Shown here: in pieces, positions 6,642-37,732 of the stretch
Layout of the letters: every line of letters begins with the position of its first letter
Numbering within the stretch: position 1 is the first letter of the stretch
Assembly (NCBI RefSeq): GCF_009363795.1
Contig: NZ_CP045420.1
Span: 477,001-541,000, forward strand
Reading direction: 5' to 3'
Origin: Palleronia sp. THAF1
Lineage (GTDB): Bacteria; Pseudomonadota; Alphaproteobacteria; Rhodobacterales; Rhodobacteraceae
Length of the DNA stretch: 64,000 bases
The notes under the pieces: model-generated
The model's database searches: none
The model's input: the letters and a program-made list of their open reading frames with translations, nothing else
What the model was told of the DNA's origin: nothing
Program-made: the position numbers and the translations under genes

Positions 6642-9600
6642 GTGGCAAGCTTGCAGAGACTCATGGCGCGCATGGCGAAAATCGGCGTTGCATTGCTGGT
6701 TTTTGCATCTCCTGCGGTTGCGACGCCCTTTACGACCACCGTTCCGAATACTGGTTTGACCCTGCCTGATGGCTACCCTGAGGCCGGCGGCGTTGCGATC
6801 GTCCTGATCGGCGACAATGGCAATGCCTACTACCAGTTCTCCAACCCCGCCGGCGCGTTCCGTGGTTTCCAGTACAACGGCGATCCGGCCAGGTTTCGCG
6901 GCAACCCGTTTACAATCAACGATCCTATCGGGCTAGATTGCGGATTTTCGGACTGCTCCGAATATTTCGGTGGCGGCATCGCCGAGATGTATATCCGCTT
7001 TTCCGCCTATGACGGCGACACCCAGACGGGTGGCTTCGACGAGAATGACATCTCGTTGCGGATCAATGGCTTCAACGTCGGCAATTGGTCAGATCGCACG
7101 ACCGAGATCACCAACAACGCCGGGACGCAAAGCTTCGGCTTCGCCAACGGCTTCGGCAACAATACCTTCAACACGGGTTGGTTTTCATCGACTAATCAGG
7201 CGCTGTTGGACAACATCCTGGCGACCGGCCAAACGATCACTCAGGTTTTCGATGCCGACCCAAACGACAACTATTGGGATTTCCGGCGCGGCAACAACCT
7301 GGCGAACGGGGACATTCAAACTGTCGCCCCGGGATACGAGCTGGAGAAGAGCACCCCGGCCACGGACTTCACCGCGCCGGGAGAGACGATCACCTACGAG
7401 TACATTGTCACCAACATCGGCTCGGTCCCGATCCGGCAGCTCAGCGTGCAAGACGACAAGATTGCGACCGTTACATGCGACAAGACTGTCATCCAAGACA
7501 CGAATCCCGGTGGCACCCCTGATTTCGCGACCTGCACCGCGAGCTACATAACCACGCAGGAAGATGTGGACCGGGGCTTCGTCACCAACGTCGCCCAGGC
7601 CAATGGCGTACCGGATTTCGGCACCCTTGGCGTGTTGACCGATACTGTTACCGTCGATGCACCCGTCGCCGCGCCCGCCATTGCGCTGACGAAGCTTTCG
7701 AGCCTGGCGGAATTCGGCGTCGCCGGGACAACCGTGCCCTACAGCTTCGAGGTTGAGAACACCGGCAATGTGACGCTGACCAACGTGCAGGTGATCGATG
7801 ATCTTCTGACAGGGTTCGCCTGCACCATTCCGTCCCTGGCACCGGGGGAGCGGGATACAACGACCTGTGCGGGTAGCTACACAGTGCAGCAATCGGACGT
7901 GGACGCATTCTCGGCCAACGGCACGACGCTGGACAACATTGCGACCGCGACAGGCGCCGCGGCGCGCGGGGCCGATCCGTCGGACGGCGATGCGCTGTCC
8001 TTGCCGGGCAGTGCGCCGGTCATCGCGCTGGATGTCGTGAAGTCGGTGACGCCGGACACCGTCAGCGCGGCACTGGACGAGGTTCTGTACACAGTCACGG
8101 TTGCGAATACCGGCACCGTCACGTGGCCGCAGGCCCCGGAAGTCACAGATCCGCTTCTGCCTCTGACCTGCCCCGGTGGATCGGTGGTCCCCGGCACTTC
8201 CGTGGACTGCACGGGCACCTATGCGGTGCCGCAGGAGGTTTTCGATGCCGGTGCCTTCGACAACACGGCGACGGCCACGATCACGGTCGATGGGCAGACC
8301 GCCACCGGAGCGGACACCGCGACCGTGACGCCCCAGCGCATCCTGTCCGCTAGCTTCGACAAGCGGCTTGCGTCCGACGGTGCGACCGATTTCGCCGCCG
8401 TCGGGGTTGCGCTGGACTATGAGTACGTCGTCACGAATACTGGCAGCGTCTCTGTCGCCGCCATTGGCGTAGATGACGACAGGATCCCGGATGCCGACAT
8501 CACCTGTCCCGCCGGGCCGCTGGCGCCGGGTGCATCGGCCACCTGCACCGCGACTTATTTGACGACGCAAGCCGACCTGAACGCTGGCGGCGTGACGAAT
8601 GTGGCCGACACCACCGTGTCCGCCGCCGATTTGGCCGATATCGTCACCGCCTCTGACACCGTTACCGTGCCCGCCGTCCAGTCCCCCGAACTCGCGGTTA
8701 CAAAGACCGCCCCCGCCACGACGCCAAGTGATTTCGCCGTCGGCAACACGATCACCTACGATTTCGAAGTTGTGAACACCGGGAACGTAGATCTGACGAC
8801 CGACCTGACCGGCGCCACAACCCTCACGGTCGAGGATGACAAGATCGGCACAATCACGTGCGGGCCGCTACCCCTCGCCATTGGCGCCACTCTGAGCTGT
8901 ACAGGCGACTACGTGCTGACGGCGCAGGACGTGCAGGCCGGTGTCGTGTTCAACACTGCCATCGCGACAGCGGGAAACGTTGTGTCTGATCAGGTCAGCG
9001 CATCTGTCGCACCCGCCGGAAGCCCAGACATATCGCTGGCGAAAACCGCCGACCTTGCCACGGTCGACACGCTGTCCGACACGATCACCTACACGTTTAC
9101 CGTAACGAATATCGGCGACACGCAGATCGTCGATACCCAGTCTGTAACCATCGACGATGCGCTTCTCGATTCCGCCGCCGTGTGTAATCAGCCGCCGACA
9201 CTTGACCCCGGCGACAGCTTCGATTGTACGGGAACCCGCAGCGGCGTCACGCAGGCCGAGTTCGACTTGGGCAGCATCGATAACACTGCGGTGGCGGAAG
9301 TGACGCTCAACCAGAACGGCCAGCCGGTGACGGTCACTTCGAACACCGCGACCGCCAGTATCCCGACGACACCGAATGCCGCCTTCACGCTGGACAAATC
9401 CGGGCCCGTTACCTTCTCGGCGGTGGGAGAGGCCGTCACCTATAGCTTCGACCTAGAGAACACCGGCAACGTGACGCTGACGGCGATCGACGTGTCCGAC
9501 CCGCTTCTGGCGGGCCTGTCTTGCAGCTTCACCGACATCGCGCCATCTGGCACCCGGACCTGCAGCGGCACCTACATTGTGACGCAAGCCGATTTCGACG

Positions 9601-12600
9601 CGGGCGTGGTCGACAATACCGCGACAGCCACGGCGATTCCGGCACAGGGCAACCCGCAGACCCAAACCGACACGCATCAGGTGACGCGCGCCGGTGGCGT
9701 TGGGACATTCGTTGCCGCGCTCGACAAGACGGCCGATGTCACGGGCTATGAGGCGGCCGGCGATGTCATCACCTACACTCTGTCGGCCACCAATGAAGGC
9801 ACGCTGACCATTCCAGAGATCACGCTGACCGATGCGCTGGATCCGGCATTCTCGTGTGACATCAATCAGCTTGCACCAGGCGCGTCCGACAGCAGTTGCA
9901 CGTTCGCCTATACAGTGACGCAAGCAGATATCGACGCGGGCGCGGTGGATAACACCGCGACTCTCACATCTCCGCAGGCTCCGACCGTCACCGACAGCAT
10001 CACGCTGCCGGGACCGGCGCGAACGGCTGCGTTCACCTTCGACAAAACCGCCGCTGCTACATTCAACGCTGCGTCCGAGACTGTGGATTTCACTTTCACG
10101 GTTCGCAACACCGGGAACGTTACCCTCACTGACGTGACGATTACCGACACCTTCTTCACCCCGGCCCTGAGCTGCACGATCCCATCGTTGGTGCCTAGTG
10201 CGGCGGACAGCACGACTTGCGCGGCCAGCTACGTCACCGAACAGGCCGACGTGGATCGTGGCCAGATCACCAATACCGCCGACGCATCCGCGACACCGCC
10301 CGCTGGTGTAACGCCTCCGACTGCATTGCAGTCGACGGCCATCGTGCAGGGACCGGCCCGCTTCCCGGCGGTCGACATTCAGAAAACCGCCGATACGGCT
10401 CAGTTCGGCGCACCTACCGACACGATAACCTATAGCTTCCAAGTCGAGAACACGGGCAACGTGACGCTGACGGACCTTGTGCTGTCCGACCCGTCGTTGT
10501 CCTTTACCTGCCCCCTGCTGGACCTGGAGCCGGGCGATGTGGCGACCACCTGTGCCGACGGGTCGCCGCTACAGGACTCCCGCGCGACGACGCAGGACGA
10601 CGTGGACTCTGGTCAGGTTCTGAACAGCGCCGGGGTCACGGGCGAAAGTGCCTTTGCCGGCACGAACGTGTCGGATGAGGACACATTGATCGTGCGCGGC
10701 CCGGACCAGACCGTGTCGCTGACGCTGGCGAAATCCAGCCCCGACGGAAATGACTTCAGCGCCGTGGGTCAAATCGTGACCTATGCGTTCGAGGTGACCA
10801 ACAGCTCGAACATTACGCTGTCTGCGCCGATCGAGATCACCGATCCGCTGGTGCCCAACGCCACCTGTCCCGGCGGATCTCTTGCGCCCACGGCAAGCGT
10901 GACCTGCACCGGCACCTATAGTGTCACGCAGGCAGATCTGGACGCGGGTAAAATCGACAACAGCGCCACCGCGTCGATAACCCAGTCGGTCGTGCCATCC
11001 AGTCCCAACGCGCCCAGCGAGCAGAGCTTTTCCACCCCCGCCGCCTCGGCCACGGTTCAGGCCGACCAGTTGCCCGCTCTGACGCTTGTCAAGCGGCTGA
11101 AGGCTGGCCAATCTTCGTCGTACGCGGAAACGGGGCAGGCCCGTGTGTTCGAATATGTGGTCACCAACAGCGGCAACGTCACCACGACTGCGCCGATCAC
11201 CCTGACGGATGACAAGATCCCCGGCACGCTGACCTGCGGTGCGGCGGGTGTGGCGCCCGGTGCCAGCGTGACCTGTGAGCAGACCTACACAACCGATCAG
11301 GCGGCGCTTGACGACGGCTCGGTGACCAACACCGCCATCGCGGAAACCCAGTTCGACGGCGCGTCAGTCCTCTCGAACAGCGATACCGCGACGTTGACGG
11401 CCGTCCAGTCGCCGATGCTGGCCATCGATAAGACCTTCGTGTCGAACAGCAACGGCAACAGCTTCAATCCGGGCGATGAGCTGACCTATCAGATGGTCGT
11501 CACCAACATCGGCAACGTCACGATAGACGGGCCCTTCACCGTCACCGACGCGGTCACCGCTGTCGATTGCGGCACACCGCCTGTGACGCTGGATCCCGGT
11601 GGCAGCTTTACTTGCTCGGCGACCTACACCGTCAAGCAGTCCGATTTCGATCTCAACGTCGTCGTGAATGTAGCCTCTGCCACCGGGTCTTTCGACGGTG
11701 AAGCCGTCCGCGCCCCGGAAGACGAAGCGATCTATCCCATCGATGCGACACCGGCGCTGGATCTGGTCAAGTCGCTTGTCGCCGGGGACGGGTTCTCTGC
11801 CGTGGGCGATGTGATCACTTATCGCTTCACCTATGAAAACACGGGCAACGTTGGCTTAAGTGAGCCGATTCTGGTCAACGACGACCGCATCGGACAGCAG
11901 GTTTGCCGGGCGGCCGGCGCGCCGGTTCTGGCCTCGGGCGATAGCGGGTTCTGCGAATACGACTATACCGTCACGCAAGCCGATCTGGACGCGGATCAGG
12001 TGGTGAACGTCGCCACGGTAGAGACGACCTACACCGTTTTGGGCGACAGCTCTATCGTGCTGTCCGGCCCCGATGATGTGACCGCCGAAGGCGCGGATTC
12101 GCCTGCCTTCACGCTGGACAAGACCAGCAGCTCGACCGCCTCGCCGATCGGTTTGGGCGATGTAATCGACTACACCCTGACGCTGACCAATACCGGCAAC
12201 CAGACGCTGTCGGGCGCAGCCATCGAAGATCCGCTTGTGGGCGCGCTGATCTGCACCATCGGTGCGAATACGGCATCGGCAAACGCCGTGCTGGCCCCGA
12301 CAGAAGCGCTTGTCTGCACAGGCAGCTATACCGTGACGCAGGCCGATGTGGATCGCGGCGTGGTCGACAATGCTGCCACTGCCACCGCATCGGACCCACA
12401 GGGCGATGCCGTGCCGCAAGTGGCCGCGCAGGACAGCGTGACGCTGGAGCCTGCCGCGCCATCGCTGACGGTCGAAAAGTCGATCACCAGCCCGGTGCTG
12501 GGCGACAACGCGTTTTCGGCGATGGATCAAGAGGTCAGCTTCGTCATTGCGGTCACCAACACCGGCAACGTCACGCTGGATCAGGCCGTGATCACCGATG

Positions 12601-15600
12601 ACCTGCCCGTGATTCCCGCGGGCTGCACCGTCGGCCCGATAGCGCCCGGCGCGACGGACAGCAGCTGCGCCGTCGTCTACACCGTCACGCAGGAAGATAT
12701 CGACCGGCAGTTCACCGTCGACGGGATGCTCTACGGCGGATTCATCAACACCGCGACCGCCGCTGCCACCTTCGCCGATCCCGATGCGACCCAGATTTCG
12801 GTCAGCGACGACGTCTTTGCCCAGGGCCCGCTGCGCGAACCGGCCCTGAGCCTTGTCAAAAGCGCCGACCGCACGGCCATCCTGACGCCCGGAGAAGTGG
12901 TTGAATACAGCTATCAGGTTGCCAATATTGGAAACGTCACGCTGTCCCAGACACCCGAGGTGTCGGACGACAAGATCGGCACGTTCTCTTGCATCGGTTT
13001 CCCTTCCGCCGGGCTGGAGCCCCAAGGCTTTTACAGCTGCACTGCAACATACACCGTGACCCAAGCCGACGTGGACGCGGGCGAGGTGACGAACATCGCC
13101 ACCCTGACCTCTGCCGAAGTGCCTGATGACGCGACCGATACCCTGACCATTCCCGTCACCCGCGCGCCTGCTGTGACCATCGTCAAAACCGCCGATCGCG
13201 TCGTGGCCGCAGCGGGCGAGACGGTGACCTACACCTATACCGTCACGAATACGGGCAACGTGACGCTGACCGACGTGACCGTGGCTGACATCCAGACCAG
13301 CGCCGCCGGTCAGACGCCTTTGACAGTCGGAGGGGACCAGCTTGTCACCGATGCAGGAGAGCCCGGAACCGCCACGGATACTGCAGGCCCCGGTGTCTGG
13401 AGCCGTCTGGGCGCGGGCGATGTGGTATCCTTCACCGCCAGCTATCTTGTCACGCAGGCGGATATTGATGCGCAGATCACCCTGTCCAATACCGCGACTG
13501 TTACGGCGGACAGCCCCGCTGGCACGACGCCACCGACGAACACCGATACTCTGACCGTCGATCCAGTCGCCAAGGCGCCGTCACTAGATATCCGCAAGAC
13601 GGCCCTGACGGGCGCATTGGGCACGCCACCCGCGCCCGGCGAGTTCGTCATCTTCGAAATCGAGGTCGAGAATACCGGGAATCAGAGCCTGTCGGGCGTG
13701 GCACCAACGGATACGCTCAGCGACGCGTCCGGGGCGTCTTTGAACCTGACGCAAGCGCCGGTGCTTGATCGCGGTGACACCGACGGGAACGGCGTGCTCG
13801 ACGTGGGTGAGACATTCGTCTTCACCGTCACCTATGCGCTGGAACAAGGTGCCATCGATGCAGGCGGCCTGTCCAACGACGCCAGCGTCACCGCCAACGA
13901 TCCGCAGGGCACCGCAATAGAGGATGACTTGCCGGCTTCGGTCATTGTGCCGCTTGGGCAGGAACCCGCGTTGTCGGTCGTGAAAGCCGCAACGCTGGAC
14001 GACGGCGGCGACGGGCGCGCGGATGTGGGCGATACCATCGCGTATACCTACACCGTGTCGAATGACGGCAATGTCACGCTGTTCGACGTGGCCGTCACCG
14101 AAACCGGGTTCGCGGGCTTGGGCACCGTACCCACAGCAACAGTTTCCACCGGAGGAGAGACGCTTGGCCAGGGCCCCGCGCTCGATCTTGCAGTGGGCGA
14201 CTCTATGACCTTCGTGGCGACCTACACTCTGGTGCAGGGCGATATCGACGCGGGCGGCGTGACCAACCAGGCGACCGCCGCGGCATCCGATCCGGATGGC
14301 GATCCGGTCGAGGATCTGTCCGGAACGGCGGCCGACAACGACACCCCAACCGTCACGCCTATCGGGTTGGACCCTTCCCTGACCGTGACGAAGGCGTCCA
14401 GCCTGTCGCTGGGTGCAGATGGTGTGGCCACCGTGGGGGATCAGATCACCTACACATTCACCGTCGCCAACGACGGAAACACCACGCTGTTCGGCGTCGG
14501 CGTCACCGAAACCAACTTCGGCGGCACAGGCCCGATACCTTTGCCGGGCTATGTTGCGGGTGGCAGCGACGAGAATGGGGATGGCGCGATCGACGCCGTT
14601 CCGGGCGCGGTCCTGACTTTCCAAGCCACGTATCCTCTGACGCAGGCGGATATCGACGCGGGCGGCATAGCGAATCAGGCGACGGCTGCTGCGACCGATC
14701 CCGCTGGTGACCCGGTGTCTGACCTGTCGGGCGATACCGCCGCCGATAACGATCCGACGCAAACGTCGATCCCGCAGGCCCCGGTTCTGGACCTCGTGAA
14801 GACCGCCGCCTTGAACGACGGCGGCGACGGAACCGCCGATGCCGGCGATACGGTCACCTACACTTTCACGGTCGAAAATACCGGCAATGTTTCCATCTTA
14901 GACCTGACGATCTCTGATACGGCGTTCTCTGGCACCGGGGGGGTGACGCCCGTCTACGCGTCCGGCGGCGCGGATCTGAATGGCACCGGCTCCATCGACG
15001 TGCCAGTCGGCGGCACGGCAGTGTTCACCGCGACCTATACGCTGACGCAAGACGATGTGGACGCGGGCAATCTGACCAACAGCGCAGAGGTTACCGCCAC
15101 CGATCCGCAAGGCAATCCAGTCACCGACGCGTCAGAAGACGAGAACGGCAACCCCACGACTACCCTTCCGCTGCCCGCCGTAGAAGCGCTGTCTGTCGCC
15201 AAGACGGTCGACACTACGGGAGTGTCCAGCCCTGCTGTCGCAGGGGATATCATTACCTTCACGATCACCGTCCAGAACGACGGCAATGTCTCCTTGGCGA
15301 CGATCACGCTGGACGACACGTTCACCCGCCGAGACGGCGCTGCTCTGGCGCTGGCGCCCACGTTCGACAGTGGCGACGCGGATGGAGACAGCGAACTCGA
15401 CCCGACCGAAACGTGGACTTACTCCGCCAGCTACGCACTGACACAAGCCGATATCGACGCAGGCGGTGTCTCCAATACGGTGTCCGTCACCGGCGATCTG
15501 CCGGGCGGGGGCAGCGTGACGAATGATGCGCCGGTACCGGCCGAAGTCTTCGTGGCGGGCGCGCCTGCGATCACCGTGGACAAGGCCCTGGGTGCGACGG

Positions 15601-18600
15601 CTCCGGTGCCGTTTCAGGCCGTGGACCAGGTGATTCCCTATACGTTCACCGTCACGAACACCGGCAACGTCACGATCACGGCGCCGATCCAGATCGACGA
15701 TCCGCTGATTGCGGGCCAGGGCAGCGGGCCCGTGGTTTGCGACGCATCGCCGCTGGCGGTAAATGATACGCTGATCTGCACCGGATCCTACAAGGTGACG
15801 CAGGCCGACCTAGACGCGGGCCAGATCGACAACCAGGCAACCGGCAGCGTGGATCAGCCTGTCGTGCCAGTGGCTCCGGGCGATCCGACGGTTGTGTCTG
15901 CATCCGACGATACCGACACCGTGACCGCGATGGCCACGCAGTCCCCCGCGCTGACTATCGCCAAGGTGCTGGCTGACACCGCGCCCCCGAACGTGGATTC
16001 CGTCGGCGATATCCTGACCTATGACTACACATTGACCAACAGCGGCAATGTCACGCTCGATGGACCCCTTACCGTCGATGACGACAAGATCGGCACCGGC
16101 CTGTCCTGTGGCGCCGGTCCGCTGGCACCGAATGGGACGGCCACGTGCAGCTTCGACTACACCGTGACCCAGCTGGATCTGAACGCAGGTGAGGTAACCA
16201 ACGTAGCGTCCGGCGCAGCCGCGTTCGACGGAGCGCCCGTTCCGACGGCGGTCGATGCCACCGTCACCGTCGACGTGATTCAATCCCCGTCCCTTTCCAT
16301 CGTGAAAGAGCTGGTCGTCCCGATCCCGGCTATTTTCCAGGACGGAGAGGTTTTGCACTACAGCTTCACGGTTGAGAACACCGGAAACCTGACCATCACC
16401 GATGTCGCGATCGCCGACTCGTTGGTGACTGGCATCACCTGCAACGCCCCGCTGACACCGCTGGACCCTGACGACGTGGTGGTGTGTTCCGCGCAATACA
16501 CGATCCAGGAGAACGACATATCGCTGGATTCGGTGACCAATGTCGCCTCTGTCAGCGGGCTGGATCCTCAGGGCGGAAATGTGACCTCGCCCCAGGACAA
16601 CGCGATCTTCCCGGTCGACGCTGCACCGGCGCTGACCTTGCAAAAGGCGGTGTCGCCGGCGGATGCGACCTTCGCGAAGGTGGGCGACACACTGACCTAC
16701 GTGTTCACCGTGATCAACACCGGCGGAGCGGCATTCACAGAGGATGTGGTCGTCAATGACCCGATGCTAAGTGGGCCCGTCCTGTGCCGCGACGGTGCGG
16801 CGTCCGGCAACTTCCTGGTGAACCAAAGCGTCACCTGCGAGGGCACCTACAGCGTTACGCAGGACGATCTGGATGCCGGGGAAATTGTGAACGAGGCCGT
16901 GGCGAACACTCTGTTCGCGCCCGCCAGCCCGAATCCGATCAACGTGTTCTCTCCTGCCGCCACGGAAACGGTGGCCGGCAACGCGACCCCCGCGCTGACC
17001 CTGGCGAAAGAGATCGTCGCCCAGCCCGCCGGTGGCGCAGCCGTGGGCGATGCGATTACTTACCGCATCACAGCTACGAACACCGGCAATCAGACCATCG
17101 GCGGCGTCACGATTTCGGACCCGCTGCTGCCCAGCCTGTCATGCACCGTGGGCGGCCAGCCCGCACCCGCAAATGTCTCACTAGCGCCCGCTGTCGGTCC
17201 TGCTGCGGGTCCGGGGCAGGCGCTGATCTGCGAGGGAAGCTACACGCTGACCCAGGCCGATCTGGACAGCCAAGAGCTTGTGAACACGGCCACTGCAAGC
17301 GGGGCCGATCCCGCAGGCACGCCGGTTGCGATCGATCCCGCCTCGGCCACCGCCGACTTGGTCGATCCCGCGCCGCTTCTGGTCATCCAGAAAGACATCG
17401 TGCCGGCGCCCGCACCCGGCGCCCCGGCCTTCACCGCCGTGGGCGATTTGGTGCAGTTCCGCGTCACCGCACAGAACGCGGGCAACGTGACGCTGGACGC
17501 GATCAGCATCACCGACGCGCTGCCCGTGAGCCCGGCGGCTTGCCAGATCGCGACCCTTGCGCCTGCCGCGCAGGATGCAAGCTGTCTGTTCTCTTACACC
17601 GTGACCCAGGCCGATATCGACGCGCGCAATGGCACGTCTCCGGTGACCGGCGGCTTCACCAACGACGCCAGCGCGACGGCGCAGCCGCGCGTGCCCGGTT
17701 CTGAACCGGTCACGGCCGAGGATGACGTCTTCGTGCCGGGCCCGCTGCGTCAGCCCGCGCTGTCCATGACGAAAACGGCGCAGACCCAGACCGTCGCCAG
17801 CGCCGGCACGGTAGTGCGTTATACCTACGTGCTGACCAATAGCGGCAACGTCACGCTGACCGACCAGCCAAGTGTAATCGACGACAAGATCGCAAACGTC
17901 GACTGTGCGCCGATCCCGGCGGCTGGCCTTCCCCCAAGCCAGACCCTGACCTGCACGGCAGATTATACGATCACTCAGGATGACATCGAAGCCGGCGGCG
18001 TGACCAATATCGCGCGGGCCCAGTCGGACGAGGTGCTCTTGCCCGCCACGCCGGGGCCCGAGACGGCGACAGAGACGGTCACGGCCACCCAGACGCAGGG
18101 TGTCACGGTCGCCAAGACCGCCGACGCCACGCAGGATGTGGTCGCGGGCCAGACCATCACCTACAGTTACATCGTCACCAATACCGGCAACCTGCGCATC
18201 AATGCCATCACCCTTGATGACCGACACACCAGCGCGTCGGGGACACAAACGCTGGACGTGGGCCAAGAGTTCTTGGAGACCGACACCGCGCCCGCGGGTG
18301 ACAGCACGGATGCCGTTGTGGATGGCACTTGGGACGTGCTGGCTCCCGGTGATGCGGTGCTGTTCACCTCGACCTATACGGTGACGCAGGCCGATATCGA
18401 CGCCGAAGCGCCGTTGACCAACACCGTGATCCTATCGGCCACGGACGGCACCGGCGCGCCCGTCACCGCTACGGACGACGAAAGCGTCCAGCCCGCCGCC
18501 CCGACACCGGCCCTGACCGTGCTGAAGACCGCCGACACGTCGGCCCTGTCCGATCCGGTCACCGCCGGAGAGCCGGTCGTCTTCACCATCACGGTCGAGA

Positions 18601-21600
18601 ATAGCGGCAACCAGACGCTTGGCGCGCCTTCGGTCACCGACACACTGCGCCTTGCCGACGGCACCATTGTTCCTTTGAATCAGTCCCCGATTTTCGTGGG
18701 CGGCGACGCAGGCGCGGACAGTGTGTTCTCTGTAGGCGAGCTGTGGACTTACCGGCTGACATACATTCTGGACCAGGCCGCCATAGATGCAGGCGGATTG
18801 CTGAATTCGGCGACGGCAACGGCGCTTGATCCCGATGGCGTTCCTGTCAGCGATACCAGCGACGATGGCGATCCGACCGATGGCGACGCAACGCCGACGC
18901 CGGTGATCCTGCCGTCAGTGCCCTCGATCGTGGGTGAGAAGCTGTTGACCCCCGCCGCTGGGACCGTGGGTGAGACCCTGCAATTCATGATTGCCGCCAC
19001 GAACGATGGAAACGTCACGCTGACGGGCGTTGCTGTCGCGTCCGACACGCTGACGCGCGCCGATGGCACGTTGCTGGCGCTGGCCTCTGGTCCCACGTTT
19101 TTGGGGGCGGACCAGGGCTCTGGTGCGGGTAGTTTGCTGCCGGGCGAAACGGCGTCCTACCGCGCGACCTATGTTCTGACGCAGGCCGATCTTGACGCGG
19201 GCGGCGTATCCAACACTGCGACCGTGACGGGCACGCCGCCCATTGGCGGCCCCCTGACGGACGTGACCGATGACGGCGACGACACCGACGGCAATGCCGT
19301 CGATGACCCGACAGAGCTGGTCATCCCGGCCACCCCGGCATTGACGCTGGTCAAGCAGCCGGGGGCCACCGCGCCCGGCACGTTCACCGCGGTGGATCAG
19401 ATCATTCCCTACGATTTCATCGTTACGAACACCGGGAATGTCACCGTGACGGACCAGGTGAACATCGTCGATCCGCTGATCGCGGCACAGGGCGGCGCCG
19501 TTACGTGTCCGGTCTTGCCTGACGGGCTTGCGCCGGGTGCAGCCACGACCTGCACCGGCAGCGTCGCGGTCACCCAGGCGGATATCGACGCGGGCCAGAT
19601 CGACAACATCGCGACCGCGACAGCTGGCGATGTCGTTGCCGACCAGCCGGGAACCGCCACCGTGTTGGCCGATCAGATGCCGTCGCTGGAGATTCAGAAG
19701 ACCGCGCAGACCGTGGCGGCGCAGGACTTCGTCGTTAGGGCGTCGATCACCTACGACTACGTGCTGACCAACACCGGCAACGTGACGCTGACGGACGAAC
19801 CGGTGCTGGACGATAACCTGATCCCCGCCGCCGACCTGACATGCGATGCATTCCCCGCAGACGGTATCGCCCCCGGTGCGACCTTTGCCTGCACGGGCCT
19901 TTATACGGTCACGGCGACCGACGTGGACCTGGGCTCCGTGACCAATGTGGTCAGCGCGACCAGCGGCGACGTGGATGCTCCGCCGGTCACCGAAACGATC
20001 CCCGAGGGCGGCGTGCCGCTGCTGGATCTGACCAAAACCCCCGCGACTGGCGCGAGCTACGCAGCTGTCGGCGATACCATCGACTACAGCTTCACTGTCA
20101 CCAACGCCGGAACCCGTGCTTTCGTGCGGCCCGTCACGGTCTTCGATGACCGCCTGGGAGACGTGATCTGTTTCACTCCCACCACCGCGGACCCGGACTT
20201 CCAACCGGGTGAGAGCGTGACCTGCACCGCGACCGACATCGTGACCCAGGCGGATCTGGACGCGGGCACGGTCGTGAACTCTGCCTTCGCTGAAACCGAA
20301 TTCGGGGCCGACGATACCTCTATCGTGTCGAATGTGGCAGACGCGGTGGTGCCCGCCGTCGCCGCACCCTCGATTGCGCTGGAGAAGTCGGTGACTCCGC
20401 TGCCGGTCACGCAGGTGGGTCAGGTGCTGACTTACACGCTGTCGGCCACGAACACTGGCAACCAGACCCTGAGCGGCGTTCTTGTGACCGACGATCTGCT
20501 GTCCGCGTTCTCGTGCAGCGCGCCGCAGCTGTTGCCGGAAGCGACGCTGAATTGCAGCGGAACCTACACGGTCACGCAGGCGGACGTGGATGCGGGAACC
20601 GTGGTGAACACCGCCGGTGTCGCGGCATTCGCGCCGAATGGGGACGCCGTGACCGGCACCGCGTCGGTGACGGTGGATATGCCTGCGCCCGCGCCGGTTC
20701 TGGTGTTGGAAAAGATCGCAACCCCGTCGCCTTTCGGCGCGGTTGGCACATCGCTGACCTACATCCTGTCGCTGACGAATGACGGCAACGTCACCCTGTC
20801 GAACCTGTCGGTCACCGATCCGCTGGCACCGGCAGGCTTCGGTTGCGCCATCCCCGCGCTTGCGCCCGGTCAGACCGATCAAAGCTGCACGTTCGCGCTG
20901 ACGGTCACGCAGGATCTTGTCGACGCGGGAGAGATCACGAACACCGCCAGCGCGACCGCAACCACACCCGGTGGCGTCGCGGTCGGCGCGGACGATACGC
21001 TCGTGACCCCGGGTCCGACACAGGCACCCGCGCTTGAGGTCACCAAAATTGCCACCTCCATTGGCGCAGCGGCGGGGCAGGTGACGACCTACCAGATCTT
21101 TGTCGAGAACACCGGCAACGTGTCTCTGACCAATATCATCCCGGTCGATCAGATGCAGAACCTGGACGGCGATACGATCGCCCTGGATGCCGGTCTGACC
21201 TTTGTCTCCGGCGATAATGGCGATGGTGTGCTGGATGTCGCAGAGGTCTGGATCTACGAAGGCCAGCGCACGCTGACGCAGGCCGATGTGAACGCGGGCG
21301 GTCTGATCAACTCCGTGACCGCCACCGGCCAGACACCGGGCGGTGGCACCGTGCAGGACGTGTCCGACGACGGCGACGATGGCGACGGGAATGCCACAAG
21401 CGATCCGACGATCGCCGCGATTCCGAACGCGCCCGCGCTGACCGTGGTCAAGGCAATCACGACGCCTGCCGTCGCGGTGGGCGAAACCGTGGTCTTCACA
21501 GTAACTGCCGAGAATACCGGCAACACCGATTTGGGCTCCGCGACCATCGACGACTCGATGAGCCGCCTCGACGGCACGAACCTTGTGCCTACGGTCACCC

Positions 21601-24197
21601 CCGTCTCGGTGCCTGATTTGTTGTCGCCGGGCGACAGTGCCGTGTGGCAGGTCAGCTACGTCCTGACCCAAGCCGATATCGACGCGGGTGGCGTGCAGAA
21701 CAGTGCTGTCGTGCAGGCCCCGAACCTGGGCGCCGACGGCGGGACCGTCTCTGACTTGTCGGCTGACGACGATCCGCTCGACGGCGACACGACCGGAGAC
21801 CCGACGGTCCTGACCATCGGCACCGCCCCTGCGTTGGAAGTCATAAAGACCGCCACCACGGTCGGTGCGGCCGCCGGCGAGGATGTTGTGTGGCAGGTTT
21901 CGGTGCAGAACACCGGCAACGTGACGCTCACAAGCGTCGTACTGGCCGATACGTTGACCGATCTGGACGGCGTGGCCCAACCCGCGCCGACGCCGGTCTT
22001 CGTGTCCGCCGATGCAGGCTCTGGTCAGGGCACCCTGCAGCCGGGCGAGACGGCGATCTACTCTGTCACAGCGACCCTGACGCAGGATGTCGTGGATTCG
22101 GGTGGGTACATAAACGTGGCCACCGCGACGGCGACGACACCGGGTGGGGCGACACTTAGTGACCTTTCGGATGATGACGGGACGAATCCAAGCGACCCGA
22201 CCGTGACGCCCGTGGTGGCACTGCCTTCTCTGGCGGTCGTCAAGACGGCGGGTCAGACCGTGTCGCTCTTCCCAACGGTGCAGCAGACGCCGTTCACCAT
22301 AACGGTCGAGAATACAGGGAATGTCACCCAAACCGAACTGTCCGTCACCGATGATCTGGCCGCCTTCGCTGCACCAGGCACCCTCCTGGCCGCCGAGTAT
22401 CCGCCGGTCGTGACGGTCTCGGGCTTCGGCACCGGCGCAAATCCCGGCTTCGACGGCGCCAGCGACACTCAGCTTCTGGCACCCGGATCCACCTTGGCAC
22501 CGGGAGAGACGGCGACGATCACCATAGTTGCCACCTACACCTACGTGCCGGGCTCGGGCGCGCTCAGCAACGCGGTATCGGTGAACGCGCAAGAGCTGGT
22601 TGGGACAGAGGAAGACGCAACAGGCGTGAACCGGCCCGACGCGGATGGCGACGGTGTGCCGGACGACCTGGAAGGCAACGGCGACCGAGATGGCGACGGT
22701 ATCCCCGACGATCAGGACTATGACCCGACCGGCTATTTCTACTGCGAGGATGATGGCCGTCTCTTGACCGGCGGTCAGATCGCGGTCACGGGCAACGGCT
22801 TCACCCAGACAGGCGTTGGCACAAGCGGGCCGATCACGGTGGTGGCGGACGGATCGCTGGGCAATCACCAGTTCTTCACGACTCAACCGGGAACCTACCA
22901 GCTGGTGCTAACCTACCCGCCCGCGGGTCCGGCCTCTGCGGTTCGCACCAGTCTTGGAACGCTGGATGCAACGACACTTCTGCCGGCCAATCCCGCATCT
23001 TTGGGCTCGAACGAGCAGGGCAACACCGGCGTGCTGGCCGATTTCACGGCTCCGGCGAATCCGTTCTACACAGCGTTCACGGTAGAGGCGGGCGACCCGT
23101 TCATCCTGAACAACAACATCCCGGTCCAGTCCTGTGGCGCGGTGGCCGACGTTGTGGCTACCAAGGTCGTGGACCGCGAAACGGCGCGCCTGGGCGAGAC
23201 GGTCAACTACACGCTGACCTTCCGCAACGACACGCTGAACACCTATACCGGCGCCATCATCACCGACGTGTTGCCCGCCGGGTTCCTGTACACGCCCGGA
23301 TCGGGCGTGGTGAACGGCGTCGCGCAAGAGCCCGCGGTCAACGGCCGGGTGCTGAACTGGACGGTCGATCTGGCGCCGAGCCAGACAATCACGGTGACGC
23401 TTGCGGCCCGCATCTCGGCGCAAGGCGGCTATGGCACGTTCACCAACGAGACCTTCATCTCGAACGCGACGGGCCGCCGGCTGTCGAACGTCGCGACGGC
23501 GGATGTCCGGGTCGATCCGGACGCAGTCTTTGCCTGCTCGGACGTGATCGGGAAGGTCTTCGACGACAAGAACCGCAACGGCTATCAGGATGGTCCGGGC
23601 ACCATTGCCGAACCGATCTACCACGACGACTACATAGCGGAAGGCAAGGGTAGGCTGTCCCGTCCCGTCGAGCGTCCGGACGTGACCGAGCCGGGTATTC
23701 CGGGTGTGCGCCTCGTCGCGCCCGACGGCACGCTGATCACCACCGATAGCGCCGGTCGATACTCTGTGCCGTGTGCGACCTTGCCCCGTGATATCGGCTC
23801 CAACTTCATGCTGAAACTGGATGACCGCACCTTGCCCACCGGGTACCGCGTGACCACCGAAAACCCGCGCGTGGTGCGCCTGACGCCGGGCAAGATGGCG
23901 CGCCTGAACTTCGGGGCTGCGCTGGGCCGGGTCGTGGACATCGACCTGACGGCGCAGGCCTTCCAGCCGGGACAGGCCGCGCCGCTGGCGGGGCTGAGAC
24001 AGGCCGTCGACGGTCTGATCGCGCAGATTGCAGACACGCCCAGCGTACTGCGCCTGACCTATCAGCGGGCGGATGCCGAAGCCCCGCCGCTGGCCCGTGC
24101 CAGACTGGCCGAGGTCGAGGCGCTGATCCGGTCCAAGTGGCGCGGGCGTGGTAACTACACGCTCGATATCGAAAAAACCGTGACGAGAGGACGCTGA
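6642..24197 (+). CDS. Giant secreted Ig-like repeat protein (DUF11/DUF7507 repeats), 5,851 residues
   Basis: One unbroken reading frame of 17.6 kb. The GTG start is supported by a strong ribosome binding site (GAGGGGGGG, 6625-6633, 8 bases away). A signal peptide follows (MAKIGVALLVFASPAVATPF, cleavage near residue 28). Residues about 30-231 form an N-terminal domain with SLRINGFNVGNW and FNTGWFSSTNQALLDNIL. Residues 232 to about 5325 hold some 42 repeats of 110-140 residues, each with K-T, TYTFTVTNTGNVTLT, DP-L, C-...-C, YTVTQADIDAG and NTATAT elements. Next are an acidic DADGDGVPDDLE / DRDGDGIPDD stretch (thrombospondin type 3-like, calcium-binding candidate), a DUF11-like domain (TARLGETVNYTLTFRND) and a carboxypeptidase-regulatory/SdrD B-like domain (VIGKVFDDKNRNGYQDG). 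The C-terminal module ends TLDIEKTVTRGR. There is no LPXTG, no PEP-CTERM and no autotransporter barrel. I infer a fibrous surface adhesin, held or exported by the barrel protein encoded next. Confidence 0.9.
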   Translation: MASLQRLMARMAKIGVALLVFASPAVATPFTTTVPNTGLTLPDGYPEAGGVAIVLIGDNGNAYYQFSNPAGAFRGFQYNGDPARFRGNPFTINDPIGLDCGFSDCSEYFGGGIAEMYIRFSAYDGDTQTGGFDENDISLRINGFNVGNWSDRTTEITNNAGTQSFGFANGFGNNTFNTGWFSSTNQALLDNILATGQTITQVFDADPNDNYWDFRRGNNLANGDIQTVAPGYELEKSTPATDFTAPGETITYEYIVTNIGSVPIRQLSVQDDKIATVTCDKTVIQDTNPGGTPDFATCTASYITTQEDVDRGFVTNVAQANGVPDFGTLGVLTDTVTVDAPVAAPAIALTKLSSLAEFGVAGTTVPYSFEVENTGNVTLTNVQVIDDLLTGFACTIPSLAPGERDTTTCAGSYTVQQSDVDAFSANGTTLDNIATATGAAARGADPSDGDALSLPGSAPVIALDVVKSVTPDTVSAALDEVLYTVTVANTGTVTWPQAPEVTDPLLPLTCPGGSVVPGTSVDCTGTYAVPQEVFDAGAFDNTATATITVDGQTATGADTATVTPQRILSASFDKRLASDGATDFAAVGVALDYEYVVTNTGSVSVAAIGVDDDRIPDADITCPAGPLAPGASATCTATYLTTQADLNAGGVTNVADTTVSAADLADIVTASDTVTVPAVQSPELAVTKTAPATTPSDFAVGNTITYDFEVVNTGNVDLTTDLTGATTLTVEDDKIGTITCGPLPLAIGATLSCTGDYVLTAQDVQAGVVFNTAIATAGNVVSDQVSASVAPAGSPDISLAKTADLATVDTLSDTITYTFTVTNIGDTQIVDTQSVTIDDALLDSAAVCNQPPTLDPGDSFDCTGTRSGVTQAEFDLGSIDNTAVAEVTLNQNGQPVTVTSNTATASIPTTPNAAFTLDKSGPVTFSAVGEAVTYSFDLENTGNVTLTAIDVSDPLLAGLSCSFTDIAPSGTRTCSGTYIVTQADFDAGVVDNTATATAIPAQGNPQTQTDTHQVTRAGGVGTFVAALDKTADVTGYEAAGDVITYTLSATNEGTLTIPEITLTDALDPAFSCDINQLAPGASDSSCTFAYTVTQADIDAGAVDNTATLTSPQAPTVTDSITLPGPARTAAFTFDKTAAATFNAASETVDFTFTVRNTGNVTLTDVTITDTFFTPALSCTIPSLVPSAADSTTCAASYVTEQADVDRGQITNTADASATPPAGVTPPTALQSTAIVQGPARFPAVDIQKTADTAQFGAPTDTITYSFQVENTGNVTLTDLVLSDPSLSFTCPLLDLEPGDVATTCADGSPLQDSRATTQDDVDSGQVLNSAGVTGESAFAGTNVSDEDTLIVRGPDQTVSLTLAKSSPDGNDFSAVGQIVTYAFEVTNSSNITLSAPIEITDPLVPNATCPGGSLAPTASVTCTGTYSVTQADLDAGKIDNSATASITQSVVPSSPNAPSEQSFSTPAASATVQADQLPALTLVKRLKAGQSSSYAETGQARVFEYVVTNSGNVTTTAPITLTDDKIPGTLTCGAAGVAPGASVTCEQTYTTDQAALDDGSVTNTAIAETQFDGASVLSNSDTATLTAVQSPMLAIDKTFVSNSNGNSFNPGDELTYQMVVTNIGNVTIDGPFTVTDAVTAVDCGTPPVTLDPGGSFTCSATYTVKQSDFDLNVVVNVASATGSFDGEAVRAPEDEAIYPIDATPALDLVKSLVAGDGFSAVGDVITYRFTYENTGNVGLSEPILVNDDRIGQQVCRAAGAPVLASGDSGFCEYDYTVTQADLDADQVVNVATVETTYTVLGDSSIVLSGPDDVTAEGADSPAFTLDKTSSSTASPIGLGDVIDYTLTLTNTGNQTLSGAAIEDPLVGALICTIGANTASANAVLAPTEALVCTGSYTVTQADVDRGVVDNAATATASDPQGDAVPQVAAQDSVTLEPAAPSLTVEKSITSPVLGDNAFSAMDQEVSFVIAVTNTGNVTLDQAVITDDLPVIPAGCTVGPIAPGATDSSCAVVYTVTQEDIDRQFTVDGMLYGGFINTATAAATFADPDATQISVSDDVFAQGPLREPALSLVKSADRTAILTPGEVVEYSYQVANIGNVTLSQTPEVSDDKIGTFSCIGFPSAGLEPQGFYSCTATYTVTQADVDAGEVTNIATLTSAEVPDDATDTLTIPVTRAPAVTIVKTADRVVAAAGETVTYTYTVTNTGNVTLTDVTVADIQTSAAGQTPLTVGGDQLVTDAGEPGTATDTAGPGVWSRLGAGDVVSFTASYLVTQADIDAQITLSNTATVTADSPAGTTPPTNTDTLTVDPVAKAPSLDIRKTALTGALGTPPAPGEFVIFEIEVENTGNQSLSGVAPTDTLSDASGASLNLTQAPVLDRGDTDGNGVLDVGETFVFTVTYALEQGAIDAGGLSNDASVTANDPQGTAIEDDLPASVIVPLGQEPALSVVKAATLDDGGDGRADVGDTIAYTYTVSNDGNVTLFDVAVTETGFAGLGTVPTATVSTGGETLGQGPALDLAVGDSMTFVATYTLVQGDIDAGGVTNQATAAASDPDGDPVEDLSGTAADNDTPTVTPIGLDPSLTVTKASSLSLGADGVATVGDQITYTFTVANDGNTTLFGVGVTETNFGGTGPIPLPGYVAGGSDENGDGAIDAVPGAVLTFQATYPLTQADIDAGGIANQATAAATDPAGDPVSDLSGDTAADNDPTQTSIPQAPVLDLVKTAALNDGGDGTADAGDTVTYTFTVENTGNVSILDLTISDTAFSGTGGVTPVYASGGADLNGTGSIDVPVGGTAVFTATYTLTQDDVDAGNLTNSAEVTATDPQGNPVTDASEDENGNPTTTLPLPAVEALSVAKTVDTTGVSSPAVAGDIITFTITVQNDGNVSLATITLDDTFTRRDGAALALAPTFDSGDADGDSELDPTETWTYSASYALTQADIDAGGVSNTVSVTGDLPGGGSVTNDAPVPAEVFVAGAPAITVDKALGATAPVPFQAVDQVIPYTFTVTNTGNVTITAPIQIDDPLIAGQGSGPVVCDASPLAVNDTLICTGSYKVTQADLDAGQIDNQATGSVDQPVVPVAPGDPTVVSASDDTDTVTAMATQSPALTIAKVLADTAPPNVDSVGDILTYDYTLTNSGNVTLDGPLTVDDDKIGTGLSCGAGPLAPNGTATCSFDYTVTQLDLNAGEVTNVASGAAAFDGAPVPTAVDATVTVDVIQSPSLSIVKELVVPIPAIFQDGEVLHYSFTVENTGNLTITDVAIADSLVTGITCNAPLTPLDPDDVVVCSAQYTIQENDISLDSVTNVASVSGLDPQGGNVTSPQDNAIFPVDAAPALTLQKAVSPADATFAKVGDTLTYVFTVINTGGAAFTEDVVVNDPMLSGPVLCRDGAASGNFLVNQSVTCEGTYSVTQDDLDAGEIVNEAVANTLFAPASPNPINVFSPAATETVAGNATPALTLAKEIVAQPAGGAAVGDAITYRITATNTGNQTIGGVTISDPLLPSLSCTVGGQPAPANVSLAPAVGPAAGPGQALICEGSYTLTQADLDSQELVNTATASGADPAGTPVAIDPASATADLVDPAPLLVIQKDIVPAPAPGAPAFTAVGDLVQFRVTAQNAGNVTLDAISITDALPVSPAACQIATLAPAAQDASCLFSYTVTQADIDARNGTSPVTGGFTNDASATAQPRVPGSEPVTAEDDVFVPGPLRQPALSMTKTAQTQTVASAGTVVRYTYVLTNSGNVTLTDQPSVIDDKIANVDCAPIPAAGLPPSQTLTCTADYTITQDDIEAGGVTNIARAQSDEVLLPATPGPETATETVTATQTQGVTVAKTADATQDVVAGQTITYSYIVTNTGNLRINAITLDDRHTSASGTQTLDVGQEFLETDTAPAGDSTDAVVDGTWDVLAPGDAVLFTSTYTVTQADIDAEAPLTNTVILSATDGTGAPVTATDDESVQPAAPTPALTVLKTADTSALSDPVTAGEPVVFTITVENSGNQTLGAPSVTDTLRLADGTIVPLNQSPIFVGGDAGADSVFSVGELWTYRLTYILDQAAIDAGGLLNSATATALDPDGVPVSDTSDDGDPTDGDATPTPVILPSVPSIVGEKLLTPAAGTVGETLQFMIAATNDGNVTLTGVAVASDTLTRADGTLLALASGPTFLGADQGSGAGSLLPGETASYRATYVLTQADLDAGGVSNTATVTGTPPIGGPLTDVTDDGDDTDGNAVDDPTELVIPATPALTLVKQPGATAPGTFTAVDQIIPYDFIVTNTGNVTVTDQVNIVDPLIAAQGGAVTCPVLPDGLAPGAATTCTGSVAVTQADIDAGQIDNIATATAGDVVADQPGTATVLADQMPSLEIQKTAQTVAAQDFVVRASITYDYVLTNTGNVTLTDEPVLDDNLIPAADLTCDAFPADGIAPGATFACTGLYTVTATDVDLGSVTNVVSATSGDVDAPPVTETIPEGGVPLLDLTKTPATGASYAAVGDTIDYSFTVTNAGTRAFVRPVTVFDDRLGDVICFTPTTADPDFQPGESVTCTATDIVTQADLDAGTVVNSAFAETEFGADDTSIVSNVADAVVPAVAAPSIALEKSVTPLPVTQVGQVLTYTLSATNTGNQTLSGVLVTDDLLSAFSCSAPQLLPEATLNCSGTYTVTQADVDAGTVVNTAGVAAFAPNGDAVTGTASVTVDMPAPAPVLVLEKIATPSPFGAVGTSLTYILSLTNDGNVTLSNLSVTDPLAPAGFGCAIPALAPGQTDQSCTFALTVTQDLVDAGEITNTASATATTPGGVAVGADDTLVTPGPTQAPALEVTKIATSIGAAAGQVTTYQIFVENTGNVSLTNIIPVDQMQNLDGDTIALDAGLTFVSGDNGDGVLDVAEVWIYEGQRTLTQADVNAGGLINSVTATGQTPGGGTVQDVSDDGDDGDGNATSDPTIAAIPNAPALTVVKAITTPAVAVGETVVFTVTAENTGNTDLGSATIDDSMSRLDGTNLVPTVTPVSVPDLLSPGDSAVWQVSYVLTQADIDAGGVQNSAVVQAPNLGADGGTVSDLSADDDPLDGDTTGDPTVLTIGTAPALEVIKTATTVGAAAGEDVVWQVSVQNTGNVTLTSVVLADTLTDLDGVAQPAPTPVFVSADAGSGQGTLQPGETAIYSVTATLTQDVVDSGGYINVATATATTPGGATLSDLSDDDGTNPSDPTVTPVVALPSLAVVKTAGQTVSLFPTVQQTPFTITVENTGNVTQTELSVTDDLAAFAAPGTLLAAEYPPVVTVSGFGTGANPGFDGASDTQLLAPGSTLAPGETATITIVATYTYVPGSGALSNAVSVNAQELVGTEEDATGVNRPDADGDGVPDDLEGNGDRDGDGIPDDQDYDPTGYFYCEDDGRLLTGGQIAVTGNGFTQTGVGTSGPITVVADGSLGNHQFFTTQPGTYQLVLTYPPAGPASAVRTSLGTLDATTLLPANPASLGSNEQGNTGVLADFTAPANPFYTAFTVEAGDPFILNNNIPVQSCGAVADVVATKVVDRETARLGETVNYTLTFRNDTLNTYTGAIITDVLPAGFLYTPGSGVVNGVAQEPAVNGRVLNWTVDLAPSQTITVTLAARISAQGGYGTFTNETFISNATGRRLSNVATADVRVDPDAVFACSDVIGKVFDDKNRNGYQDGPGTIAEPIYHDDYIAEGKGRLSRPVERPDVTEPGIPGVRLVAPDGTLITTDSAGRYSVPCATLPRDIGSNFMLKLDDRTLPTGYRVTTENPRVVRLTPGKMARLNFGAALGRVVDIDLTAQAFQPGQAAPLAGLRQAVDGLIAQIADTPSVLRLTYQRADAEAPPLARARLAEVEALIRSKWRGRGNYTLDIEKTVTRGR
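8016..10709 (+). repeat. Higher-order repeat block 1 (units 3-10)
   Basis: First and least similar copy of the recurring subtype series. Unit 3 resembles units 11 and 24. Unit 4 (DDDRIPDADITC) resembles units 12 and 25. Unit 8 carries the APGASDSSC signature and the GPAR junction seen again in units 16 and 29 (GATDSSC, GPLR). Confidence 0.45.
10710..15563 (+). repeat. Higher-order repeat block 2 (units 11-23)
   Basis: Thirteen units. Landmark subtypes are unit 12 (TLTDDKIPGTLTC), unit 13 (ending APEDEAIYPIDAT), unit 16 (unusual spacer MLYGGF, ending DDVFAQGPLRE), unit 17 (VSDDKIGTFSC), unit 18 (long insert with GVWSRLGAGD), unit 19 (DTDGNGVLDVGE) and unit 23 (RRDGAALALAPTF). Each has a counterpart at the same relative order in block 3. 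Confidence 0.65.
15564..19334 (+). repeat. Higher-order repeat block 3 (units 24-33)
   Basis: Ten units that follow the order of block 2 with three units fewer (no counterparts of units 20-22). Unit 25 (TVDDDKIGTGLSC), unit 26 (ending SPQDNAIFPVDAA), unit 29 (spacer TSPVTGGF, ending DDVFVPGPLRQ), unit 30 (VIDDKIANVDC), unit 31 (GTWDVLAPGD) and unit 33 (TRADGTLLALASGPTF) match the landmark units of block 2. Confidence 0.65.
19335..22223 (+). repeat. Higher-order repeat block 4 (units 34-41)
   Basis: Unit 34 (GATAPGTFTAVDQIIPYDF) closely matches unit 24 (GATAPVPFQAVDQVIPYTF), the first unit of block 3. Units 35, 36, 37 and 38 then match 25, 27, 28 and 29. Units 39 and 40 match 32 and 33. The block is shorter and ends with the cysteine-free units before the C-terminal domains. 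Confidence 0.6.
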
Positions 24198-33167: not shown

Positions 33168-33170
33168 GGC

Positions 33171-36910: not shown

Positions 36911-37731
36911 CACACGGTGCCTCCAAGCGACCCTTCCAGCTGCGCCATTTCTTGCCCACCGGCCATCATGTCCTGCAGCTGTTCGGGTGTAATTTCCCCG
37001 CGGGTCGCCGTGCCCAGCGTCTTGCCGCGGTTGAGCACGGTAAAGCGGTCGCCCACGGCCAGGGCGTGGCGCACGTTGTGGCTGATGAACACGACACCGA
37101 TGCCCTGCTTGCGTACCCGGTCGATGGTGGCCAGCACGTTGGATGTCTGGCGCACGCCAAGGGCCGAGGTCGGCTCGTCCAGTATCAGCACACGCGCCCC
37201 GAAATATACAGCCCGCGCGATGGCGACCGTCTGACGCTCGCCCCCCGAAAGGGTGCCCACCGCTTGATCCGGCGCACGCAGGTTGATGCCCATGTCACGC
37301 ATATGGCTCATAGTGATCTCGTTCATCTTGTCGATGTCGAGGCGCTTGAACGGGCCGCTGCCCTTCGTGGGTTCGCGTCCCATGAAGAAGTTGCGCGCCA
37401 CACTCATCAGCGGGATCATCGCCAGATCTTGGAACACCGTGGCGATGCCGGCCTCCATCGCCTCTCGCGGGCTGGAGAAATCCATCGGCTGGTCGTCGAT
37501 GTTGATCGAGCCCTTCGTGGGCTTGTGAACGCCCGACATCGTTTTGATGAAGGTCGACTTGCCCGCCCCGTTATCGCCCAGCAGGCAATGACATTCGCCG
37601 GGGCGGACGTCGAAGCTGACACCGGCGAGCGCGATGATGTTGCCGAAGTGCTTTTCGATGTCGCGCATCTCGATGATCGGCTTGGCATCGGCCTTCGGCG
37701 TGCCGTGGTGGAACTTGGTTTCCTGCTCCAT
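36910..37731 (-). CDS. Sugar ABC transporter ATP-binding protein (probable inositol importer)
   Basis: A 273-residue single nucleotide-binding domain that powers import. Motifs: Walker [10 protein letters not shown] (about 52-60), Q-loop FQDLA, signature LSGGERQ (about 160), Walker [12 protein letters not shown], and the H-loop in VVFISHN. Most ribose-type importers have a double-length ATPase (RbsA). This half-length form is like the fructose FrcA type and would work as a homodimer. Its place between permease and iolC strongly suggests inositol as the substrate, but that is inferred from context. The start is separated from the permease stop by one base. Confidence 0.88.
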
Positions 37732-37732
37732 C

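Follow-up and report, generated by a model that had tools for sequence, protein, structure and literature searches.

Type V systems (autotransporters, two-partner secretion, and intimin/invasin) combine a passenger with an outer-membrane barrel, either in one chain or in adjacent genes. The RTX/Bap giants SiiE, LapA, and BapP are built on long immunoglobulin (Ig)-like or cadherin-like stalks. Here, we describe a gene pair that resembles both groups: a gene for a 5,851-residue protein with an Ig-like repeat stalk, which we call the giant, and directly downstream a gene for a predicted outer-membrane barrel. Both lie in a stretch of 64,000 nucleotides, hereafter the window, from the marine-type bacterium Palleronia sp. 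THAF1 (contig NZ_CP045420.1, positions 477,001 to 541,000 of the forward strand; genome of 3.34 Mb in 2 contigs). The pair differs from type V systems in that its barrel matches no POTRA or autotransporter-barrel family at E 0.01 in Pfam or NCBIfam, its stalk is made of Ig units rather than a beta-helix, and its barrel is larger.

The stalk itself is of a described kind, that of the CLIPPER fibrillar adhesins. DUF11 and DUF7507 have been renamed CLIPPER and CLIPPER_2, and DUF7507 is predicted to hold an isopeptide bond (PMC12617251). A protein treated in the same paper, B9T28_05395 of Acinetobacter silvestris, shares with the giant a stalk of the DUF11/DUF7507 type with isopeptide triads; its C-terminal end is OmpA-like, as that of the giant perhaps is in degenerate form. 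Yet it has 2,129 residues against 5,851, it carries N-terminal CshA-like domains where the giant's N terminus has no family match, and the portion of the paper available to us mentions no barrel partner (“outer membrane” occurs 0 times), whereas the giant has one. The giant adhesin of the Gram-positive Mobiluncus mulieris (7,651 residues, 51 Ig-like domains) is likewise a single chain of covalently cross-linked Ig-like domains with disulfides; compared with the available account of it, the window's giant has isopeptide triads together with cysteine pairs and an outer-membrane partner (PMC10619420). BapP is reported to have a predicted Sec signal and type I secretion genes alongside, while the giant has a barrel gene alongside and no RTX motif (PMC12153261). 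Finally, SprA, the type 9 secretion translocon, is described as having 36 strands (PMC9581022). It is similar to the giant's partner in being a very large single-chain outer-membrane barrel and is found among the partner's Foldseek matches, but with template modeling (TM) scores by query of ≤0.17, and the partner has no sequence match to any solved chain at E 1. Among the open-licence literature matches listed, we found no paper on the giant/barrel gene pair; relative to these, the new part is the dedicated, conserved, fused-or-split, very large barrel partner.

Predicted isopeptide bonds and cysteine pairs in the giant

The giant's gene is a single intact frame at 6642..24197 on the plus strand, as are all features of the pair given below. 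It comprises 17,556 nt and 5,851 codons from GTG to TGA, with its sole stop at the end; the nearest in-frame stop before the GTG is 5 codons upstream, and GC at third positions is 0.76-0.81 across the gene's ten full slices. The predicted protein has a mass of 592 kDa and an isoelectric point of 4.05. Its translation opens, by eye, with a signal peptide (residues 1-27; 6642..6722) that has a basic start, a hydrophobic core, and an AVA/TP cleavage site. An N-terminal domain follows (residues 28-228; 6723..7325), a putative tip recognized by its conservation, being 58-75% identical across 11 aligned relatives; the window copy matches no Pfam family, and sequence searches of the PDB gave nothing usable. 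Next come 42 DUF7507 (CLIPPER_2) units (7326..22595), delimited by Pfam, by a hidden Markov model (HMM) of the unit, and by their triads. They span residues 229-5318, ~87% of the protein.

When the units are aligned, Lys at column 8 and Asn at columns 31 and 87 are invariant (42/42), and column 44 holds Asp in 40 units and Glu in the other two. A complete Lys/Asp(Glu)/Asn triad is present in 42/42 units. Lys, Asp, and Asn at about the same places form the DUF7507 isopeptide triad in PMC12617251, the available part of which also reports the solved structure 9IFR, a related DUF11 domain with such a bond. The giant has just 64 lysines among its 5,851 residues, and 42 of them are triad lysines. 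Every unit is likely, so it seems, to be able to lock itself by an intramolecular Lys-Asn isopeptide bond. Among 16 hand-chosen relatives, full triads were counted in 27/29, 28/29, 28/29, 30/33, 26/31, 28/29, 29/29, and 28/29 units of one half and in 11/12, 17/17, 16/18, 2/4, 8/8, 42/44, 45/46, and 31/34 units of the remainder, with the lowest retention in L124 (2/4) and L056 (26/31).

Cysteines also follow a pattern. Exactly two, at identical columns, occur in 29 units, 13 units have none, and no unit has one; six further cysteines lie outside the DUF7507 units. The two types are arranged in blocks: 17 units with one cysteine pair each (7326..13118), 6 cysteine-free units (13164..15515), 7 with pairs (15561..18032), 3 without (18102..19250), 5 with (19332..20981), and 4 without (21024..22595). 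Among the open-licence literature matches listed, this block architecture with a predicted lock in every unit appears to be new.

A preliminary description of this DNA, made from its letters alone, had proposed an unbroken GTG-to-TGA frame, a signal peptide, about 42 repeats, and several C-terminal domains, and all of these are seen here; the DUF11/DUF7507 profile search that it suggested returns 42 DUF7507 units and one DUF11 unit. It also held that such repeats are known from surface proteins, in agreement with the report of the family in fibrillar adhesins in the available text of PMC12617251. Its idea of a very long surface fibre maintained by selection is well supported by frames of the same layout, ~4,000-6,500 residues long, in other genera. 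Its reading of a long fibre stands, but it did not notice the isopeptide triads, the paired cysteines, or the barrel gene that follows.

The giant has 0 matches to the RTX nonapeptide GGxGxDx[LIVAF] and 0 to the LPxTG sortase motif, and the RTX and sortase routes were rejected for it since both motifs are absent. Among the relatives, a single RTX-like match occurs in L122, and one or two LPxTG-like matches occur in each of several proteins.

A predicted very large barrel encoded next to the giant

The partner gene (24199..27642) begins 1 nt past the giant's stop; its 1,147-residue product ends in Phe. Its position, its AlphaFold model, and its conserved pairing with the giant point to an outer-membrane beta-barrel protein. 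The model, built from 73 rows (the window and 72 of the 76 available relatives), has a predicted local distance difference test score (pLDDT) of 81.9 and a predicted TM score (pTM) of 0.79. It shows N-terminal beta domains at residues 30-264 (24286..24990), and from residue 265 to the terminal Phe a barrel region (24991..27639) with 41 predicted strands of ≥8 residues. One of these, strand 462-469, lies within a stretch of short strands; thus, about 40 strands may form the barrel, which would exceed the 36 of SprA. The protein has no NCBIfam match, and its Pfam matches, DUF481 and DUF7840, are both under the cut-off. The 50 Foldseek rows listed contain loose matches only (TM by query ≤0.20), to the FimD usher, many TonB-dependent receptors, SprA, LptD, and Deinococcus-type SlpA/SDBC, and no close solved relative of the barrel was found among them.

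To follow the pair across bacteria, a barrel alignment was used to search 84,980 species genomes, which gave at least 593 candidate stretches, 579 of them confirmed; the best 80 were examined. The giant's C terminus lies directly upstream of the barrel in 70 of the 75 assessable loci, namely, 69 called by script plus L188, which was added by hand because the script had put its barrel start too far upstream. One locus has the reversed order (L149), and five could not be judged at contig edges (L173, L198, L205, L210, and L213). Overlaps of 4 nt between the two genes are common among the loci. Viewed from the giant's side, the barrel adjoins the C terminus in 17 of 20 regions from the family (L052-L071); of the other three, L064 is at a contig edge, L069 is a remnant that lacks a barrel, and in L071 the frame with the C terminus also matches the barrel weakly. 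The L069 remnant (16983-17720 of its region) is a lone 245-residue C-terminal piece and apparently a decayed copy.

The barrel is present in 1 of 14 genomes of the genus, the window's own, and the giant's C terminus is present in 19 of 149 genomes of the family. Barrel matches occur in 9/385 genomes of a class sample and 50/398 of a phylum sample, many of the latter partial; the window genome is counted in these figures and in that of the family. Plasmids carry the pair as well: 22 records contain the barrel, and the C terminus lies within ~1 kb on the same strand in all 20 of the records listed, which reach beyond Alphaproteobacteria to Eleftheria and Vibrio. To judge from gene order in these genomes, the giant and the barrel travel together, and their distribution is patchy.

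In some loci, both parts are found in one frame. In a panel of 57 fetched regions, two of them overlapping, the frame of L119 (cut at a contig start) contains the giant's C terminus (E 5e-51) followed by the barrel (E 5e-124), and that of L076 contains the same two parts in the same order (E 1e-33 and E 6e-45). Weaker, partial matches to both parts, in this order within one frame, occur in L071, L078, L128, L129, L131, and L134. In L076, 75 residues separate the two matches, and the giant's last ~90 and the barrel's first ~298 residues are missing, a loss of both ends that is expected if the lost parts are those by which the separate proteins dock. The chains of L078, L128, L129, L131, and L134 have 1,672-2,253 residues with DUF11/SdrD_B-like and barrel-like regions and are possibly a minimal form.

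C-terminal domains of the giant

After the last DUF7507 unit and before the C-terminal domains lies an acidic DxDGDG-type stretch (22638-22736) that by eye resembles thrombospondin type 3 calcium sites. The first of the domains proper is a DUF11 (CLIPPER) domain (23148..23468), matched by DUF11/DUF7927 in Pfam and, above cut-off, by the NCBIfam isopeptide model TIGR04226. Its Lys5508, Asp5542, and Asn5602 (K5508, D5542, and N5602) are invariant in 66/66 aligned rows. A C-terminal profile, made from 65 of the 69 available C termini plus the window, matches 9IFR at E 5e-8 with Lys, Asp, and Asn aligned, while the window's DUF11 domain alone gives no phmmer match to the PDB. The aligned Asp of 9IFR is residue 749 by our count and 748 as printed in the available text of PMC12617251; Lys715 and Asn806 agree.

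Next is an SdrD_B-like domain (23535..23921), assigned by homology to relatives: 2 of 10 scanned relatives pass the SdrD_B cut-off, and the window genome has no match to PF17210 itself at E 0.001. The terminal domain (23910..24194) has a beta-alpha-beta-alpha-beta order predicted by AlphaFold and, judged from this and from relatives, is perhaps a degenerate OmpA-like domain. A canonical OmpA domain stands above cut-off at the C-terminal end of 5 of 10 distant relatives scanned. Since OmpA domains bind peptidoglycan, these endings suggest that the giant's own C-terminal end is periplasmic. An AlphaFold model of the C-terminal 800 residues (53 rows) has a pLDDT of 84.4 and a pTM of 0.52; among the matches listed, Foldseek pairs it with Ig-rich proteins, integrins first, and with the isopeptide pilins BcpA, EbpB, and RrgB and SdrD (TM by query ≤0.18).

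Evolution of the repeat array

The preliminary description had named an assembly artefact as one way in which its reading could fail. That route is largely closed by the absence of near-identical repeats. Pfam, run on the whole genome at E ≤ 0.001, finds 42 DUF7507 (PF24346) matches, all above cut-off and all inside the giant's frame. A unit HMM built from 41 units recovers the 42 units and the DUF11 unit at residues 5508-5588, with DUF7507 units spaced 100-149 residues from start to start. Over 861 unit pairs, aligned residues are on average 37% identical at the protein level and 50% at the DNA level, and the top pair reaches 59% in protein. Tandem Repeats Finder detects no array in the gene, within which exact DNA repeats reach 25 bp at most. 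Matched residues agree at 0.42 of their fourfold sites, against 0.35-0.43 expected from composition, by residue; these sites are therefore near saturation. With units so diverged and exact repeats so short, collapse or stretching by the assembler is unlikely, and a recent duplication is not indicated. The array is also more than chance because the frame stays open over 17.6 kb and its units have positional counterparts in another genome (L221). Given that match of unit order, we regard an assembly or annotation artefact as a negligible prospect.

Eight near-complete relatives from other genera, with 29-33 units (L052-L057, L110, and L111), show a block pattern of 17, 3-7, 5, 4. In five of them, two units within the first block are free of cysteine, and in one the first unit contains a single cysteine. 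The ninth giant compared, that of L061, has a different make-up. Remoter relatives have fewer units, mostly cysteine-free, and L141, L151, and L152 are among those with a middle block of 5, not 7. The extra 7 + 3 units of the window fit an old block duplication, which we consider probable: units 11-19 (10716..13916) and 24-32 (15561..18848), the two presumed copies, have a mean likeness of 0.447, the top value among 325 same-length block pairs, and 0 of 2,000 shuffles that kept unit type reached it when scored at the same place rather than at their own best block.

The same 7-3-5-4 end occurs in Sulfitobacter (L138 and L177) and Pacificoceanicola (L162). The full gene of L162, L221, encodes 6,118 residues with 44 units in blocks of 17-8-7-3-5-4, and that of L138, L222, encodes 6,491 residues with 46 units in blocks of 17-10-7-3-5-4; both exceed the window gene in length. 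For 35 of the 42 window units, the best match in L221 lies where expected, the exceptions being units 16, 18, 21, 22, 31, 32, and 42. In remoter relatives, reciprocal best matches number just 19 in L110, 16 in L111, 18 in L056, and 16 in L055, some of them out of order. Judged by its sequence, the array is old, mostly stable, and unhomogenised. The earlier claim that no mutation breaks the frame holds for the window gene but does not extend to all relatives: in L055 a separate frame holds the N-terminal domain, and the repeat frames of L113, L193, L212, and L216 are split, by decay or draft assembly.

Possible modes of display

Together, the giant and barrel genes would make one surface device. 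Sec would export the giant, whose 42 DUF7507 units would fold into a stalk with a Lys-Asn isopeptide bond inside each and a disulfide as well in 29; bonds of both kinds would make a rod resistant to pulling and to proteases. Taking about 4-4.5 nm per Ig-like unit, we estimate a stalk length of some 170-190 nm. The conserved N-terminal domain would be the outward tip, and the C terminus (DUF11, SdrD_B-like, and perhaps OmpA-like) would stay at the outer membrane and dock on the barrel, which would serve as an anchor and perhaps as an export channel too. Overall, the giant is probably a covalently locked stalk of the fibrillar adhesin type that is held by its own barrel and may also be exported through it. 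Of the parts of this proposal, the locks and the surface fibre are likely, and the barrel is very probably the giant's functional partner, whereas a role in adhesion, biofilm formation, or cell-cell contact is no more than plausible.

Several observations weigh against this proposal. The 80 barrel loci were those with the best scores, and some genomes contribute two. Four of the 75 assessable barrels have no giant nearby (L199, L203, and L207, where >9 kb of DNA lies upstream, and L211, where 3.7 kb does), and three further orphan barrels occur in other families (L074, L075, and L077). On plasmids, the 20 listed barrel records do not include two of the 22 with the C terminus; two barrel rows went unlisted. 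The tip has no known binding family. Tests of the terminal domain against OmpA are weak (hhalign probability 15%, E 0.0018; 1/34 rows, E 0.08). The giants of L124-L126 stop right behind the SdrD_B-like domain despite having a separate barrel gene, which indicates that the terminal domain is dispensable for the split form, and the L119 fusion retains both supposed docking parts. As to the first four orphans, they come from Chelativorans and Nitratireductor, and strain ZSWI3 also has a paired copy (L208). For OmpA membership of the window's terminal domain, the direct tests are weak and the support comes through relatives.

The barrel could itself be the pore of a split, autotransporter-like two-gene system, in which the giant passes N terminus first through ~40 strands until its C-terminal domain halts it. 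The repeat-protein part precedes the barrel part in 8/8 fused frames, 41 strands of ≥8 residues are predicted, and transport barrels (FimD usher, SprA translocon, and LptD) are among the top Foldseek rows; the giant has no RTX motif, and the genome has one secretin match, in a 480-residue frame ~0.4 kb from an OmpA-family match. We take this secretin to belong to a Tad/Flp pilus rather than to type II secretion, and type II secretion of the giant was set aside on these grounds. However, all 50 listed fold matches of the barrel are weak and many are nutrient receptors, and barrels exist without an adjacent giant; an export channel is a reading that we hold tentatively, at somewhat less than even likelihood. 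Another view, in which the barrel works independently as a nutrient receptor and is no more than a neighbor of the giant, draws on several plasmid records that annotate it as “TonB-dependent receptor,” on the many Foldseek rows filled by Cir, BtuB, and PirA, including ranks 2 and 3, and on the orphan copies. TonB-dependent receptors have 22 strands. The predicted count is far above this, no plug or receptor model of such receptors matches at E 0.01 in Pfam or NCBIfam, and adjacency in 70/75 loci, a single reversed pair, and fusions all argue for a partner, which makes an unrelated receptor very improbable. Despite its frequency among weak fold matches, TonB receptor identity was rejected for want of a family match.

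The giant might instead be a structural envelope fibre or a cell-cell scaffold with no specific adhesive tip, as would suit a protein that is ~87% repeat units (residues 229-5318) and whose tip, in the window, matches no known family. Yet the tip is 58-75% identical in 11 relatives, compared with 0.34-0.68, by a stricter count, for the best unit matches to L221, and a patchy, partly plasmid-borne spread is more in keeping with a niche factor than with a housekeeping layer. A purely structural role therefore seems unlikely, and we favor the barrel-held, adhesin-type stalk.

Genomic neighborhood

Just past the barrel gene, 27954-28514 (minus strand) resembles by eye the remnant of an IS5-like transposase; together with presence in 1 of 14 genomes of the genus, this fits acquisition or rearrangement. 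No clean empty site was found: in G899, the sole genus-mate with both neighbors on one contig, >1 Mb separates uvrB from the IolB-like gene, and simple insertion into an empty site is unsupported. Further along, 31423-38911 (minus strand) holds, by eye, an inositol-catabolism-like cluster (IolB-, IolE-, IolD-, and IolC-like) and a sugar-type ATP-binding cassette transporter; the IolB-like gene is present in 8 of 14 genus genomes. At the left edge of the window, a frame at 74-901 (plus strand) resembles by eye a right-handed beta-helix protein.

Implications for surface display

In the literature found, the surface display by Gram-negative bacteria of such large isopeptide-locked Ig fibres without RTX or LPxTG is unexplained. 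The gene pair offers a testable candidate, a dedicated and very large barrel that has no Pfam or NCBIfam name. A ~40-strand single-chain barrel that exports and holds isopeptide-locked giant Ig fibres, the two being carried on a mobile pair of genes and sometimes fused into an autotransporter-like chain, would be an undescribed display system; this combined proposal is slightly less likely than the export channel taken singly. With 42 predicted covalent locks per chain, the giant would be a notable natural mechanical fibre, and the patchy, partly plasmid-borne spread of the pair suggests that it serves marine and soil Proteobacteria as a niche factor.

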